Shown here piece by piece: positions 3,916-62,698 of a DNA stretch of 64,000 bases. The notes under the pieces are model-generated. The model had not been told where the DNA came from. It saw nothing but the letters and a program-made list of their open reading frames with translations, and ran no database searches. Source of the stretch: Tannerellaceae bacterium (GTDB lineage: Bacteria; Bacteroidota; Bacteroidia; Bacteroidales; Tannerellaceae); the NCBI GenBank assembly GCA_031259845.1, contig JAIRKZ010000160.1:35571-99570 (forward strand), given 5' to 3'. Both the position numbers and the translations under genes were made by a program. Numbering within the stretch: position 1 is the first letter of the stretch; every line of letters begins with the position of its first letter.

Positions 3916-6900
3916 TTAAAATTCTAAATCAATACTTACCCCATAATATCTCAAAAGAGGATAATTTCCGCGAAGATAGAATCCACCGACGCCTGACCGC
4001 CCACCCATATTGTTGCCAAAGTTGGTGCTTTCGGGATCTGCCCATGAATTTTTTGAGAAAGTGAATGGGTTCTGTACGTTTGCGCTGATGTGCGCTTTAC
4101 CGATACCCGCCTTTGCAAAAATCTTTTTAGGAAGCGTATAACCCAGCCTGATGTTCTTCACTCGCAGGTAAGCCATGTTATACAAAATAATGTCTGTTCC
4201 TATTTTTTGATAATTGTTTTGTCTTGATGGCCCGTCAGTCGCCAATCGCGGTAATGTGGCATCAGGATTGTCAGGAGTCCAGAAATCCAATTGATGCTCA
4301 AACATCGTAGAGACCCAGTAAAGATGATGGAATGGTTCTGACATTTCGCCGCGAATCTGCTGGAGACGTTTGCCCACGCCCTGTATAAGGATGTTAAAAT
4401 CGAAGCCTTTCCATGCTATATCGTACGTAAAACCGAAAGTATATCTCGGAAAGGCATTGCCCAGCACCCGGCGATCGAGTTCGTTGATAACGCCATTTCC
4501 ATCCGTATCTACATATTTTACGTCTCCCGGTTGAACGATAGCGCCAACAGGAAGAGCGCTACTGGCAATTTCTTCTTGGCTTTGGAAAAGTCCGGCAGAT
4601 TTATAACCATAGTATGACCCCAGCGCTTCGCCTTCCCGTATGATATTCCATGTTTCTTCACCCTGAGTGATTTGCTCTTTCCCTCCAAAATCAGTTACTT
4701 TGTTTTTCGCGTCTGCTATATTGAGCCTGATACGATGCGAAAAACCGCCTGATTTTACCTGATAGCCAATGGTGGCTTCCCAACCTACGTTTTGCATCTC
4801 GCCCAAGTTTTGCGTGCCTGCATTGGAGGTTCCGAATATCATTGGAACTACGGGGGTTAACAATATATCGTACGTTCGTTTTTTAAACCAGTCAAAAGTG
4901 ACGTCAAAACTGTTGTTAAAAAACGTAGCGTCGAAACCGATATTAAAATTGGCTGATGTTTCCCATGACAATTGCTCATTGCCGATAGACAAATCGAAAC
5001 CCGGATAAGCCGTATTGTTAAATCCATATCTGTTTGGCTGCTGTGTATATGTTGTCAGATAGGCATAGTCATCTACGCTTTGGATACCTAAAAGCCCATA
5101 CGATGTACGAACTTTCAGATTACCTACATTGGTTTTGTATGAACTCATGAAATCTTCTTCCGAAATACGATATGCAGCCGAGAATGACGGGAAGAAACCC
5201 CAACGATAGTTTTTAGCAAATTTCGATGAACCATCGTAACGAAACGTAAAATCAAGATAATACCTGTTGTCATAATTATATCCCGCGCGCCCAAACACGG
5301 ATGTGATACTTCTTTTAATGGTATTTTGATTGCTTGTATAGTTATTGGTAGCCTGTCCAACCTGCGTAGCGTTTTCGCCGGTATTGAGCCCTAAATCCGG
5401 ATCCGTATATCTCCATCTTACCATACTTTGTTCTTGGGTGTAAGATTCATTGGACACGCCCAACATTGCGTTTACATTATGCGCAGAGGCGAAGGTACGG
5501 TTGAAGTCCAGTAAGAATTGGGTATTTAAATTGTAATATTTATTATTCCAATCATCTACATCCCGATTTGAATTTATGTAACGCGCCGGAGTTTCCAAAT
5601 CAGTTTCCCAATATAGCGGAACCTGTATCCAACGGCGGAAACGATGTTGCTGTACTAGTTCAATACCTACCAACGCTTTTGCTTTTAATCCTTCAAAGAT
5701 GGCATATTCAACGTTCATATTACCGATGATATTATCGATGTCTTGTTTTTGTTGTCCTCCCTGTTCCAGTTGCCCAAGCGTGTTTGCATCCACAATACAA
5801 TCATTGATGAGGTACTTTCCATCGTCCGACTTCAACTTGTAATAATAATATTGCGGTATACGAAAGACGTTGGTATTCAAACTACTTGTATTAGTAACCG
5901 GGTGATCGTCCATGGTACGGTTATACGCCAATATTGCGCCAACCTTAAATCTTTTCCATTCAGTATTCAAATTGATGCGGAAATTATAGCGTTCGCGCCC
6001 CCAATCGCCTACGAAATTGTTTTCCTGGTTGAAATATCCTAACGAGAGCAAATAAGAAGTATTGTTGGCGCCGCCTGAAACGCTTAAATTATATGATTGT
6101 TGCAACGCATTCTTATAAATTTGATCCATAAACCATGCGTCTTCGCTACTATGCGCTTTTAGGTCATCGATTTGTGCCTGTGTGTAAGTAAGCGGCAGAT
6201 CTGTGACTTCATTCGAATAATTACGCAACTCGGCATTCTTCCAACCTGCCACAGGACGATATAGGATTTCCGGAGCATTAACGCCCATCATCCCGCTGAA
6301 ACGAATCTTGGGAGTGGTATTTTTTGCCCCTTGCTTCGTCGTGATCAATATAACCCCATTTGCAGAGCGCGAACCGTAGATGGCAGCGCTACCGGCATCT
6401 TTCAGAATGGTCACATTTTCAATATCGTTTGGATTCAGATTAGTCGTTAACGCATCGAGGCCGGAGGCAATCATTCCATCTATAACAAGCAATGGATCAC
6501 TGTTATTCATTGATGAGACGCCACGAATGTTGATATTCATGGTGTTTTCATTCGGGTTCATGTTCCTTTGCTGTATAATCAGATTTGGGCTAGCTCCTTG
6601 TAACGCCTGCATGGCATTTCCAACAGGCCTGTCTTCGAAAGTCTGCGTCCCTACCAAGTCGATAGCGCCCGAAACACTGCTACGCCGTTTCGTTCCATAA
6701 CCAACAGCAACTACCTCATCCAGCCCTATCGCCTCTTCCCGTAGTACAACATTTATTGATGTTTGGTTTCTTACCTGTATTTCCTGAGTAACATATCCGA
6801 TATAGGAAAATTGAAGTGTAGCATTTTCAGATATAAAAAGGCTGAATTTCCCCTCTATATCCGAGATGACACCATTACTTGTCCCTTGTTCTACAACATT

Positions 6901-7347
6901 CACGCCAATCATAGATTCGCCGGATTCATCTACAATTCTACCGGAAATCTGTTTTCTTCCGTCTTGTTGAGATGAAATAAGTTTTTTTTCGGAAAGGACA
7001 ATCAGTTGACCAACTATTTTGTAATCAATCCCGGTATTTTTTATTAATTGATCTAAAACTTCTTTTAATTCTCCATCAGAAAAGTGAATGTCCACTTTAC
7101 GTGAAGTATCGACCGCCTTATCTGTAAACACAAATTTGAAATTAGTTTCCTTTTCAATCTTTTCTATAACTTCTTCCACCGTAACATTACTCATGTCTAA
7201 CGATAATCTTGTGTTCTGTGAATGGGATATGCCTGCATATAAATGGTATAAACACAAAAACAAAAGAAATGTTGTGATTTTCATAATACGCATGTACCCC
7301 TTTAGCACTTTTCCGCAAAAGTGCAGTTTGTCTATTCGAATTTTCAT
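3916..7347 (-). CDS. SusC/RagA-like TonB-dependent transporter with N-terminal STN domain
   Basis: STN-like region (LSLDMSNVTVEEVIEKIEKETNFKFVF), carboxypeptidase-D-like segment, plug (VVAVGYGTKRRSSVSGAI...GSAAIYGSRSANGVILITTKQG), C-terminal YYGVSIDLEF. True start may be MRIMKIT at 7293. Confidence 0.95.
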   Translation of the reverse strand: MKIRIDKLHFCGKVLKGYMRIMKITTFLLFLCLYHLYAGISHSQNTRLSLDMSNVTVEEVIEKIEKETNFKFVFTDKAVDTSRKVDIHFSDGELKEVLDQLIKNTGIDYKIVGQLIVLSEKKLISSQQDGRKQISGRIVDESGESMIGVNVVEQGTSNGVISDIEGKFSLFISENATLQFSYIGYVTQEIQVRNQTSINVVLREEAIGLDEVVAVGYGTKRRSSVSGAIDLVGTQTFEDRPVGNAMQALQGASPNLIIQQRNMNPNENTMNINIRGVSSMNNSDPLLVIDGMIASGLDALTTNLNPNDIENVTILKDAGSAAIYGSRSANGVILITTKQGAKNTTPKIRFSGMMGVNAPEILYRPVAGWKNAELRNYSNEVTDLPLTYTQAQIDDLKAHSSEDAWFMDQIYKNALQQSYNLSVSGGANNTSYLLSLGYFNQENNFVGDWGRERYNFRINLNTEWKRFKVGAILAYNRTMDDHPVTNTSSLNTNVFRIPQYYYYKLKSDDGKYLINDCIVDANTLGQLEQGGQQKQDIDNIIGNMNVEYAIFEGLKAKALVGIELVQQHRFRRWIQVPLYWETDLETPARYINSNRDVDDWNNKYYNLNTQFLLDFNRTFASAHNVNAMLGVSNESYTQEQSMVRWRYTDPDLGLNTGENATQVGQATNNYTSNQNTIKRSITSVFGRAGYNYDNRYYLDFTFRYDGSSKFAKNYRWGFFPSFSAAYRISEEDFMSSYKTNVGNLKVRTSYGLLGIQSVDDYAYLTTYTQQPNRYGFNNTAYPGFDLSIGNEQLSWETSANFNIGFDATFFNNSFDVTFDWFKKRTYDILLTPVVPMIFGTSNAGTQNLGEMQNVGWEATIGYQVKSGGFSHRIRLNIADAKNKVTDFGGKEQITQGEETWNIIREGEALGSYYGYKSAGLFQSQEEIASSALPVGAIVQPGDVKYVDTDGNGVINELDRRVLGNAFPRYTFGFTYDIAWKGFDFNILIQGVGKRLQQIRGEMSEPFHHLYWVSTMFEHQLDFWTPDNPDATLPRLATDGPSRQNNYQKIGTDIILYNMAYLRVKNIRLGYTLPKKIFAKAGIGKAHISANVQNPFTFSKNSWADPESTNFGNNMGGRSGVGGFYLRGNYPLLRYYGVSIDLEF
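7305..7324. other. Perfect 8-bp stem-loop in the susC 5' region
   Basis: GCACTTTT-ccgc-AAAAGTGC, about 12 nt upstream of the alternative ATG at 7293. Confidence 0.6.
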
Positions 7348-57980: not shown

Positions 57981-59603
<1,623 letters not shown>

Positions 59604-59772
59604 TTATCAGAAAACAACATGCTCTGTTTTTATGAAAATGCAAAGTTAGTTATTTTCGCTAACAGTCATTATGCGGCGGCTGACAATTTTTGTTATAATG
59701 CTTTCACAAACATACTGGAAGAAAAATAAAAATATCCCTACTTATAGGGTTAAATTGAAGGGTTGGGCGTTC

Positions 59773-59780
59773 TATCTTTG
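59773..59780 (+). promoter_or_regulatory. Bacteroidetes-type -7 element (TATCTTTG) upstream of the Cys-rich precursor
   Basis: Exact TAnnTTTG match 47 nt before the precursor ATG; no well-spaced -33 element. Confidence 0.5.
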
Positions 59781-59827
59781 TTATTACCGGAACAGGATTC
59801 AAGCAATAATGAAAAAGATTAAAAAAG

Positions 59828-60280
59828 ATGAAATTCAATGACGAACCCAACAGCGAAGAACTTCACTCAAGGAGGGAGTTTTTCAAAAAGGCTGCCAAAA
59901 GGGCATTGCCCGTTTTTGGTATTATCGTGTTTGAGGGTAGTTTCACGGCCTGCGAAGACCCGAAAAAGGATGTATTAGACGAGTTTCCCGAAGAAGAACC
60001 AGGCCCTGGCTGCAAAGATTGTACCGCTACCTGTACGTCTACCTGCACCGGAACCAGTAAAGGCAGTACCTGTACCGGATGCGGTTCAACATGTTCAACA
60101 GGATGCAGGGGAACGGCCAAAACGACTTGCCTGGATTGCAGCATCGCGTGTGCATCCAGTTGCGCATACGGATGTAAAAGCGCTTGTGGAGGCAACTGTA
60201 TCGGTTTGTGTAGCGGCGCTTGCGGAGGCGCTTGCGGTTATACTTGTACAGCCGCCTGCCGGATGGGCGCTTTCATGTAA
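59828..60280 (+). CDS. CXXX-repeat Cys-rich RiPP-like precursor with Tat-like/lipoprotein-like leader
   Basis: 150 aa; leader SRREFFKKAAKRALPVFGIIVFEGSFTAC; then 20 Cys mostly as CxxxC in three blocks; directly upstream of radical SAM/SPASM genes. Confidence 0.85.
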   Translation: MKFNDEPNSEELHSRREFFKKAAKRALPVFGIIVFEGSFTACEDPKKDVLDEFPEEEPGPGCKDCTATCTSTCTGTSKGSTCTGCGSTCSTGCRGTAKTTCLDCSIACASSCAYGCKSACGGNCIGLCSGACGGACGYTCTAACRMGAFM

Positions 60281-60296
60281 GTAAAGGGGCAGGGAG

Positions 60297-61442
60297 ATGG
60301 AAAAACGAAAGATTTGGCAGGAAGGAGCGGCGAAGAACATTACATTCATCGTTACCAAAGACTGCCAGCTTGTTTGTAAATATTGTTACCTTGTGGGCAA
60401 AAACATCAAGGAGCGGATGCCGTGGGAGGTAGCCAGACAGGCAATTGATTATATCCTGGATGATACGGAGCAATTCAGCGAAAGGTCTGCCGTCTTCGAT
60501 TTTATAGGCGGGGAACCTTTTCTTGAAATTGATTTGATAGACCGGATATGCGATTATATCAAATGCCAACTGTTTGCGCGAAACCATCCCTGGTTCGATT
60601 CGTATCGTTTTAACTTTTCTACAAACGGCATTAATTACCATGATGAAAAGGTACAGCGTTTTATCAAAAAAAACCTGCGGCATTTAAGTATCGGCATTAC
60701 AATAGACGGAACTCCGGCAAAACATGATTTGAACCGGATATATAAAAGCGGAAAAGGCTCCTACCACGACGTAGCGAAAAATATTCCCCTCTGGCTCGAA
60801 CAGTTCCCCGGCGGAGCAACCAAAGTAACCATCAGCAGCCCGGACATACCTTATATAAAGGAGAGTGTGCTGCATCTTTTCGTATTGGGAATTACGGAAG
60901 TAAATATCAATTGCGTATTTGAAGACGTATGGCGCGAAGGAGACGATGCGCTGTTTGAAGAACAACTAACAGGCTTAGCCGACGAAATTATTGAGAAAAG
61001 GCTATACAAAACGCATGGCTGCTCGTTCTTTGCCGAACATATCGGAAAGCCGCTCGACCGTAAACTGCAGAATCAGAACTGGTGCGGGGCCGGCATGATG
61101 CTGGCCGTTGACGCTGCCGGGTATTTCTATCCCTGCACCCGCTTTGCCCAATATTCTTTGCGGGATAAAAAGGCGCGTATCATAGGCAACGTCCGTGAAG
61201 GAATCGACCCGAATAAACTCCGCCCCTTCCTGGCATTAGACCGTTGTACGCAAAGCACAGGCGAATGTATCGATTGTGAAGTGGCAAGCGGATGCGCCTG
61301 GTGTCAGGGCGAGAATTACGACGCCGCTTGTGCGCCTACTATTTATCAACGCTCCACAGCCATTTGCCGGATGCACAAGGCGCGCGTAAGAGCCAATAAT
61401 TATTATTGGAACAAACTGTATCGTGCATTAGAAATTTGTTAA
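60297..61442 (+). CDS. Radical SAM/SPASM peptide maturase, CXXX-repeat target type
   Basis: 381 aa; CQLVCKYC (CX3CX2C); C-terminal SPASM cysteines CGAGMMLAVDAAGYFYPCTRF...CIDCEVASGCAWCQG. Confidence 0.92.
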   Translation: MEKRKIWQEGAAKNITFIVTKDCQLVCKYCYLVGKNIKERMPWEVARQAIDYILDDTEQFSERSAVFDFIGGEPFLEIDLIDRICDYIKCQLFARNHPWFDSYRFNFSTNGINYHDEKVQRFIKKNLRHLSIGITIDGTPAKHDLNRIYKSGKGSYHDVAKNIPLWLEQFPGGATKVTISSPDIPYIKESVLHLFVLGITEVNINCVFEDVWREGDDALFEEQLTGLADEIIEKRLYKTHGCSFFAEHIGKPLDRKLQNQNWCGAGMMLAVDAAGYFYPCTRFAQYSLRDKKARIIGNVREGIDPNKLRPFLALDRCTQSTGECIDCEVASGCAWCQGENYDAACAPTIYQRSTAICRMHKARVRANNYYWNKLYRALEIC

Positions 61443-61446
61443 TCGT

Positions 61447-62385
61447 ATGCTGCAATACCTTATTATATTATTAGATGATACGTCTGTTTCTTTTTGCCAT
61501 TACCGGAATACGAAGAGCAAGCGCCGGTTAATTGCATTAAACAGGCTGGAAGCCGGTATACTCTTTGCCATGAAACACAACCTGATGGTGCAGTTTGTGT
61601 ATCCCGGTTATGAGTTGCCCGAATCATACGCAACGGTAATAGAATCGATAGACCATCATAAAATAAAACCTTCTTCCCTGAAAGGAGACGCTAATGTGGC
61701 AGTCTGTGATTACAGGGACGCTGTTTCGGATCATACGCTCAACAGAAATGAAAAAACCACGTTTGTATTACGTATAACGAAAGAGGAGTTATTTAACGGA
61801 TATGAAGAGGTTATCCTTTTACTGAAACGTTTGAACCGGCTTTCGCTGGTTATCACCGATACGGATGCTTTCCGGAAAAAAGATTTCGACACGTACAAAA
61901 AGGTTTTATCGCATCTGGAAAGCGCTCTTTCGGAAGCGTTAAAAGAGGATGATATGCCCCAGCTGAATATCCTGTCAGACCGTATACGGTTGGAGAAGAT
62001 GAATAATTGTAATGCCGGGGTAGAGAACATCACATTAGCTCCCAATGGTAAATTTTACATCTGCCCGGCTTTTTATATAGAGGATGAAGACGATTCGGCA
62101 GGTAATCCGGCGGAAGGGATAACGATACCGTACCGGCAGCTTTACACGCTTGCATACGCCCCCATTTGCCGTAAATGTGATGCGTATCATTGCCGGAGGT
62201 GTATCTGGTTAAATAAAAAGACCACCCTCGAAGTAAATACGCCTTCACACGAACAATGCGTAACGGCGCACCTGGAAAGGAACGCAAGCCGCAATCTGCT
62301 GAACAAACTACAGGCAAAAGGCTTTTTCGCCCATAAGGAAATAAGAGAAATTACCGGCTTAGACCCTTTTGAACGGAAGGAATAA
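61447..62385 (+). CDS. CXXX-repeat peptide maturase-like protein; SPASM-like C-terminus, no radical SAM CX3CX2C
   Basis: 312 aa; N-terminal half lacks CX3CX2C; C-terminal CNAGVENITLAPNGKFYICPAFY...CRKCDAYHCRRCIWLNKKT...HEQC. Confidence 0.8.
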   Translation: MLQYLIILLDDTSVSFCHYRNTKSKRRLIALNRLEAGILFAMKHNLMVQFVYPGYELPESYATVIESIDHHKIKPSSLKGDANVAVCDYRDAVSDHTLNRNEKTTFVLRITKEELFNGYEEVILLLKRLNRLSLVITDTDAFRKKDFDTYKKVLSHLESALSEALKEDDMPQLNILSDRIRLEKMNNCNAGVENITLAPNGKFYICPAFYIEDEDDSAGNPAEGITIPYRQLYTLAYAPICRKCDAYHCRRCIWLNKKTTLEVNTPSHEQCVTAHLERNASRNLLNKLQAKGFFAHKEIREITGLDPFERKE

Positions 62386-62422
62386 AGATATCGCCAGTAA
62401 ATTAAATAATAACTATATAGTA

Positions 62423-62698
62423 ATGTGTATGAAAAAGAAAATAGGTTGCGTAACAGAAGACGAAAAGAAAGAAATCCTTTCTCTCTTTGAACGGAAAAAC
62501 GGTTTGGCAGAATTGGCCAAAATAGTAAAAGACGACGATACCCTGTATGAAAAAATGGTAAAAGACATGGGGGCCACCTCTACCCGTTTCCAGCAATGGT
62601 GGAACAGTATGGCGGCAAAGTACCAGTGGGAAAGCGCCGAAGAGGGCAACTGGGAAATAGACTTTGAAACGAACGAGGTATTTCTCAAGTACAACTGA
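62423..62698 (+). CDS. Small CXXX-repeat peptide modification system protein
   Basis: 91 aa from ATG 62423 (ORF 62369..62698): MCMKKKIGCVTEDEKKEILSLFERKNGLAELAKIV...FQQWWNSMAAKYQW; called by position and recalled family. Confidence 0.65.
   Translation: MCMKKKIGCVTEDEKKEILSLFERKNGLAELAKIVKDDDTLYEKMVKDMGATSTRFQQWWNSMAAKYQWESAEEGNWEIDFETNEVFLKYN

Follow-up and report, generated by a model that had tools for sequence, protein, structure and literature searches.

What is made by a small gene cluster in which a cysteine-repeat precursor stands ahead of a radical SAM enzyme, and by what route does the product leave the cytoplasm? The question is raised by a stretch of 64,000 nucleotides (the window) from contig JAIRKZ010000160.1 of a Tannerellaceae bacterium, in which positions 59,828 to 62,698 hold four plus-strand genes, all with open reading frames. 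The answer put forward here is that the four genes form a CXXX-repeat radical SAM RiPP operon, and that its precursor is probably a substrate of the twin-arginine (Tat) pathway, modified in the cytoplasm and exported in the folded state.

When the frames were re-read, the placing of the four genes and the two gaps of 16 and 4 nt given in the first-pass annotation stood as described. The precursor gene (59,828-60,280, plus strand; 150 residues, 21 Cys) is followed after 16 nt by the gene for a radical SAM/SPASM maturase of family TIGR04115 (60,297-61,442, plus strand; 381 residues, with the CX3CX2C motif at residues 23-30) and, 4 nt further on, by that for a pseudo-radical-SAM/SPASM partner of family TIGR04119 (61,447-62,385, plus strand; 312 residues, without CX3CX2C). 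The last frame, which encodes a small partner of family TIGR04116, can open at TTG 62,369, and this had been taken as the start of the gene. The homologues and the TIGR04116 match begin instead near ATG 62,423, which is most likely the true start; the small gene would thus run from 62,423 to 62,698 (plus strand; 91 residues), with a likely gap of 37 nt behind the SPASM gene. In the intergenic region 59,586-59,830 upstream, TATCTTTG (59,773-59,780, plus strand) is an exact match to the Bacteroidetes -7 element, the consensus of which is TAnnTTTG, and represents a candidate promoter for the operon, its 3' end lying 47 nt ahead of the first codon of the precursor. The minus-strand flanking genes, named by reading their protein sequences, are presumably pyrG (CTP synthase) and a gene for an EamA-type transporter, and a near-identical locus (L001) has the same arrangement of these flanks.

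The identity of the system follows from the NCBIfam models. The radical SAM protein scores 619 bits against TIGR04115 (cut-off 350) and its operon partners 234 bits against TIGR04119 (cut-off 150) and 91 against TIGR04116 (cut-off 50), and this is the same CXXX-repeat system that the first-pass annotation had named. Assignment of the enzyme to an unrelated substrate family, which had been stated beforehand as the outcome that would overturn that naming, was not observed, in that the anaerobic sulfatase maturase model TIGR03942 gives 54.6 bits against a cut-off of 349. The CX3CX2C cysteines of the enzyme (Cys23, Cys27 and Cys30) and its full set of SPASM cysteines are invariant in 80 homologues. 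Its nearest other families by HMM include the PapB and SCIFF maturases, neither of which is reached at cut-off (184.5 against 340 bits for NF047865 and 103.4 against 425 bits for TIGR03974), and CteB is its only solved sequence relative.

The TIGR04119 protein had been read as a SPASM-only protein, which is borne out by seven invariant SPASM-type cysteines, an equally invariant Cys17 and the absence of CX3CX2C. Its AlphaFold2 model (pLDDT 90.7) matches the thioether synthase CteB (5why) with a query TM-score of 0.69 and, given this fold match and the missing motif, the protein is best seen as a pseudo-radical-SAM/SPASM partner. Maturase and SPASM partner are found in one reading frame in two loci (L125:5101-7266, 721 residues, the partner half being assigned from length, and L140:204-2390, 728 residues), a fusion which suggests that the two proteins work as a complex. 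The TIGR04116 protein also gives a confident model (pLDDT 93.6), for which there is no PDB fold match below E 0.001, and a known-fold reading was rejected.

The substrate of these proteins is distinguished by its core (60,011-60,259, plus strand; residues 62-144), which contains 20 cysteines, mostly at every fourth residue. The first-pass annotation gave the precursor 20 cysteines, a number that holds for the core and falls one short for the whole protein, where Cys42, at a lipobox-like site, makes 21. Within the core the spacings run 3-4-4, 9, 3-4-4, 8, 3 and then ten steps of 4, and 14 C-x3-C pairs are observed; 20,000 shuffles of the core averaged 4.1 such pairs and never gave more than 11. 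This is the cysteine-every-fourth-residue pattern of the CXXX-repeat system. Against the precursor model TIGR04117 the protein reaches 27.4 bits, below the cut-off of 50 and best over leader residues 9-34, and it is not filed as a member of that family.

What is done to so many cysteines? Here the caution of the first-pass annotation over the chemistry was well placed, as thioether formers are among the nearest families of the enzyme and none of them is matched at cut-off. In the mechanism favoured here the TIGR04115 enzyme, aided by the TIGR04119 and TIGR04116 proteins, would bind a conserved L-P stretch of the leader in the cytoplasm and then work along the core, most likely forming thioether links from cysteines to neighbouring residues, since the PapB and SCIFF maturases are among its nearest families and CteB is the one relative with a solved structure. 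PapB links Cys to Asp or Glu, and CteB-type enzymes link Cys to Thr (PMC10352776). Asp and Glu are largely absent from the window core, a point against the favoured mechanism, and in the homologues the residue just before Cys is mostly Ser, Thr or Gly. Alternatively, the core could be a metal or Fe-S binding protein that acquires its cofactor in the cytoplasm and then leaves by Tat, a pathway that carries cofactor proteins, with the SPASM proteins assisting in assembly and few or no thioethers being made. A cysteine content of 21% of residues in the homologous cores would suit such a role, as would single weak matches to Fe-S and ferredoxin models among the precursors and the existence of copper-binding RiPPs with a signal peptide, the bufferins (PMC12452194). 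The main enzyme, however, falls in a branch of radical SAM peptide maturases with characterised neighbours that form covalent links, and the Gly/Ser/Thr spacers vary, with no fixed ligand set across the homologues, which makes metal loading an unlikely explanation of the operon.

If the core is covalently cross-linked, as preferred here, its export becomes the central issue, and fundamental to this is the leader. The leader of the window precursor reads as a twin-arginine signal sequence, SRREFFKKAAKRALP...FTAC; the first-pass annotation, while correct on the system, had passed over this Tat/lipoprotein leader and the tatAC genes linked to it in relatives. The twin-arginine motif S-R-R-E-F-F-K-K occupies residues 14-21 (59,867-59,890, plus strand). 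In alignment A3, which was built from RR-bearing precursors, R15 and R16 are invariant and F18, F19, L27 and P28 are at least 90% conserved; the unbiased figure is that from 80 related loci, in which candidate precursors were picked by C-x3-C content alone with the leader ignored, and where RRx[FL][FL] precedes the repeat in 128 of 138 cysteine-repeat ORFs. Among the other ten, three are cut by contig ends; the remainder mostly look wrongly started, split or unrelated, with a few that may truly have no leader. When placed in register at the RR, the leaders read S-R-R-[ED]-F-F-K-K-A-A-K-x-x-L-P-I-L-G-A and pass into a hydrophobic stretch, after which there comes either a lipobox-like Cys, often with acidic residues next to it, or an AxA-type site. 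The Tat-signal models TIGR02811 and TIGR01409 match 14 and 5 of 117 precursors, respectively (E up to 0.1), and neither matches the window leader, in which the twin-arginine motif, hydrophobic stretch and signal peptidase site of a Tat substrate are all present.

The end of the leader bears on where the product would come to rest. On reading of the sequence, Cys42 (59,951-59,953, plus strand) lies in a lipobox-like FTA-C, with E-D-P-K-K following; the Phe at -3 is a point against this reading, and FTAC recurs in two related loci (L001 and L002). Lipobox-type homologues carry on average 2.0 to 2.4 Asp or Glu residues in the five positions after the Cys, depending on the classifier, and the reference motif for the Bacteroidetes lipoprotein export signal has polar and then acidic residues at +2 to +6 (PMC5080379). 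Because of the lipobox and the acidic residues behind it, the window product would be expected to carry a lipid at Cys42 and would probably be held in the envelope, perhaps at the surface; the many homologues with an AxA-type site at the end of the leader would be released.

The neighbourhood of the related operons points to the same export route. Among the 80 loci, 41 have a TatC homologue downstream (one of these is truncated at a contig end), with a TatA-like gene in every case, and in 40 of these 41 the TatA-like gene directly precedes TatC and adjoins or overlaps the TIGR04116 gene. One isolate with such an operon pair is Bacteroides salyersiae DSM 18765 (L004). The exception (L046) is a partly duplicated operon in which tatA and tatC are separated by an insertion that holds another TIGR04116-like copy, a fragment of TIGR04119 and an additional precursor. 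A further 28 loci lack TatC in 3 kb or more of sequence behind the operon, and the other 11 end too soon downstream to be judged; four of the 28 genomes lacking operon tatAC yielded no TatC, these being MAGs of unknown completeness. An apparent tie between lipobox-type precursors and the absence of operon tatAC was dropped as unproven (p = 4e-6 with one classifier, p = 0.08 with a second); there were too few pairs in a tree-based test, and both classifiers misassigned some leaders.

Of 345 Bacteroidales genomes drawn evenly and independently, 10 hold TIGR04115, all 10 of which have TatC, and with the window's own genome left out an operon tatA-tatC pair was found in 7 of 9. A second TatC occurs in 5 of the 10 TIGR04115 genomes against 13 of the 335 others (p = 5e-5), although the association of TIGR04115 with the presence of any TatC is not significant (p = 0.37) because TatC is common. 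The operon TatC is the sole TatC found in two of the analysed genomes (G035, 97% complete, and G328, 100% complete) and in Leyella stercorea DSM 18206. In a tree of TatC the operon and housekeeping genes are split with 2 changes, compared with about 21 in shuffles, so that the operon TatCs fall into one or two lineages distinct from the housekeeping ones. Along the maturase tree, operon tatAC switches between present and absent about 15 times. These patterns would fit either an old dedicated Tat module that has been lost repeatedly or a mobile one.

The window operon itself has no tatA or tatC genes. Its genome has tatC at G000:C186:7755-8471 with tatA just before it, some 88 kb upstream on the contig that holds the window and, by gene presence, the TatA and TatC needed for a Tat substrate are thus both there. 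The window product would therefore be expected to use this housekeeping TatA-TatC, with a dedicated operon pair available in about half of the related loci. The anatomy of the leader and the gene linkage together suggest that the same leader that guides the maturase would act as the twin-arginine signal, and that the cross-linked protein would cross the inner membrane folded through TatA-TatC, since Sec does not readily take a chain that has been cyclised.

Is the RR motif perhaps no more than a part of a recognition leader for the maturase, with no Tat signal at all and export by another route? The L-P and its surrounding residues are conserved beyond the needs of a Tat signal, from which it is clear that the leader has another role besides Tat. 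Two loci from a remote clade of the phylum, L123 and L124, yielded as sole candidate precursor a short peptide with 5 Cys (L123:5007-5291 and L124:6686-6892), the leader of which keeps 'RKTLPG' yet lacks both the RR and any long hydrophobic stretch; there is no operon tatAC. A leader with L-P and without RR suggests that L-P is the part read by the maturase and RR the part read by Tat. With tatA-tatC in the operon in so many loci and independently drawn genomes, with lipobox or AxA-type sites coming next in the leaders, and with the clade that has lost the RR also lacking a signal-like stretch and operon tatAC yet keeping L-P, a purely recognition role for the motif is very improbable.

The Tat-substrate reading does not extend to every relative. 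On the plasmid pAPRE01 of Anaerococcus prevotii (L140, NC_013164.1) the enzyme families of the window operon recur, as a fused TIGR04115-TIGR04119 protein and a 41-residue TIGR04116-like protein, but the putative precursor has 56 residues, 4 Cys and no signal peptide, and the adjacent export gene is an ABC transporter rather than Tat. This Firmicute locus also has a class III lanthionine synthetase gene (lanKC) just downstream. CXXX systems without a Tat leader (L123, L124 and L140) mean that the family, taken together, does not depend on Tat; maturation and the route of export look to be modules that can be separated, with the Tat coupling appearing as an arrangement of the Bacteroidota. Operons of Bacteroidales type on MAG contigs titled Clostridia, Clostridium or Lachnospiraceae (L037, L050 and L069) are probably misbinned contigs or mislabelled genomes.

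The weakest step of the mechanism concerns function, where the product is envisaged as a tough cross-linked protein of the envelope or surface and not as a small diffusible antibiotic. Known Cys-rich radical SAM RiPPs do include antibiotics, such as ruminococcin C (PMC6779426), and some loci have several diverse precursors, up to 7, as might be expected of a secreted antibacterial peptide freed by cleavage of its leader. Other than the operon genes, tatA and tatC included, and the precursors, however, every ORF family is confined to 10 or fewer of the 80 loci, and no recurrent family resembles a leader peptidase, an ABC exporter or an immunity gene. It is for want of exporter and immunity genes that a bacteriocin is set aside as improbable; cores of up to 74 Cys, lipobox-type leaders on many precursors, the window's included, and the occurrence of the same repeat in tail-module proteins of related phage loci also argue against it.

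These phage loci bear on the structural role. On phage-type contigs TIGR04115-like radical SAM enzymes are located beside Cys-repeat proteins that lack a Tat leader; for instance, in L143 (MT835573.1) the features at 4466-5047 and 5929-7269 lie among tail genes. A scan of viral contigs with the L143 enzyme as query found no relatives, whereas the window enzyme as query did, and Cys-repeat ORFs are present in 10 of 12 IMG/VR loci (L144-L155). Three of these stand out (L145, L152 and L155): in L145 the enzyme, at 486 bits (cut-off 350), lies behind Baseplate_J and Mu Gp48 genes and a 23-Cys protein, and the 246-kb contig of L152 has Cys-repeat proteins with 52 and 78 Cys. The phage Cys-repeat proteins are possibly radical-SAM-modified tail proteins, and the pairing of the same enzyme type with Cys-repeat proteins in tail modules leads us to lean towards a structural role in the bacterial operons. 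A further candidate, titled 'Bacteriophage sp.' (L142, MT837480), was rejected, as it looks like an ordinary Bacteroidales CXXX-tatAC operon and is probably host DNA.

How does the window operon compare with systems already described? In the CXXX-repeat system of NCBIfam (TIGR04114 to TIGR04119) its enzymes lie over the cut-offs and follow a Cys-repeat precursor in the order to be expected, but the precursor falls under its own cut-off, and the Tat leader and linked tatAC are outside the model names. With the PapB and CteB/SCIFF ranthipeptide maturases it has in common a radical SAM/SPASM enzyme acting on Cys-rich peptides, differing in its two extra partners, the export signal on the precursor and the lack of a PapB-like Asp/Glu acceptor pattern. 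In the MNIO-modified bufferins and oxazolins, as in the window system, export signals replace classic leaders, cysteines are the target and some products are lipoproteins (PMC12452194), although there an MNIO enzyme is combined with the Sec route and here a radical SAM enzyme with a predicted Tat route. The same 2025 survey regards Sec-type export signals on RiPP precursors as highly unusual (PMC12452194). Mature nisin has been passed through Tat, as cited from Hetrick et al. in PMC11048544, by engineering that exploited the capacity of Tat for folded substrates; that display is a laboratory construct, whereas window-type systems are natural, with the Tat genes linked to the cluster. Neither TIGR04115 nor 'CXXX repeat peptide' was found named in the open-access literature searched, nor was a natural Tat-exported RiPP, most subscription journals and the NCBI family notes lying outside that search. 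The CXXX-repeat family having already been named computationally, only the Tat coupling appears to be new, and its priority is uncertain.

On balance, and by a modest degree of preference, we favour a natural class of RiPPs whose leader doubles as a Tat signal and whose cluster often brings its own TatA-TatC because cross-links block passage through Sec, with the same enzyme family cross-linking CXXX domains for structural purposes both on the envelopes of Bacteroidales and in proteins of phage tail modules. A Tat pore inside a RiPP operon would provide a testable rule, namely that ring-closing modifications need Tat or ABC export and that other modifications can use Sec. Genomes in which the operon TatC stands alone would point to Tat systems with few substrates. 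That phage tail modules hold this repeat together with this type of enzyme suggests, finally, that radical SAM cross-linking may also build structural proteins.
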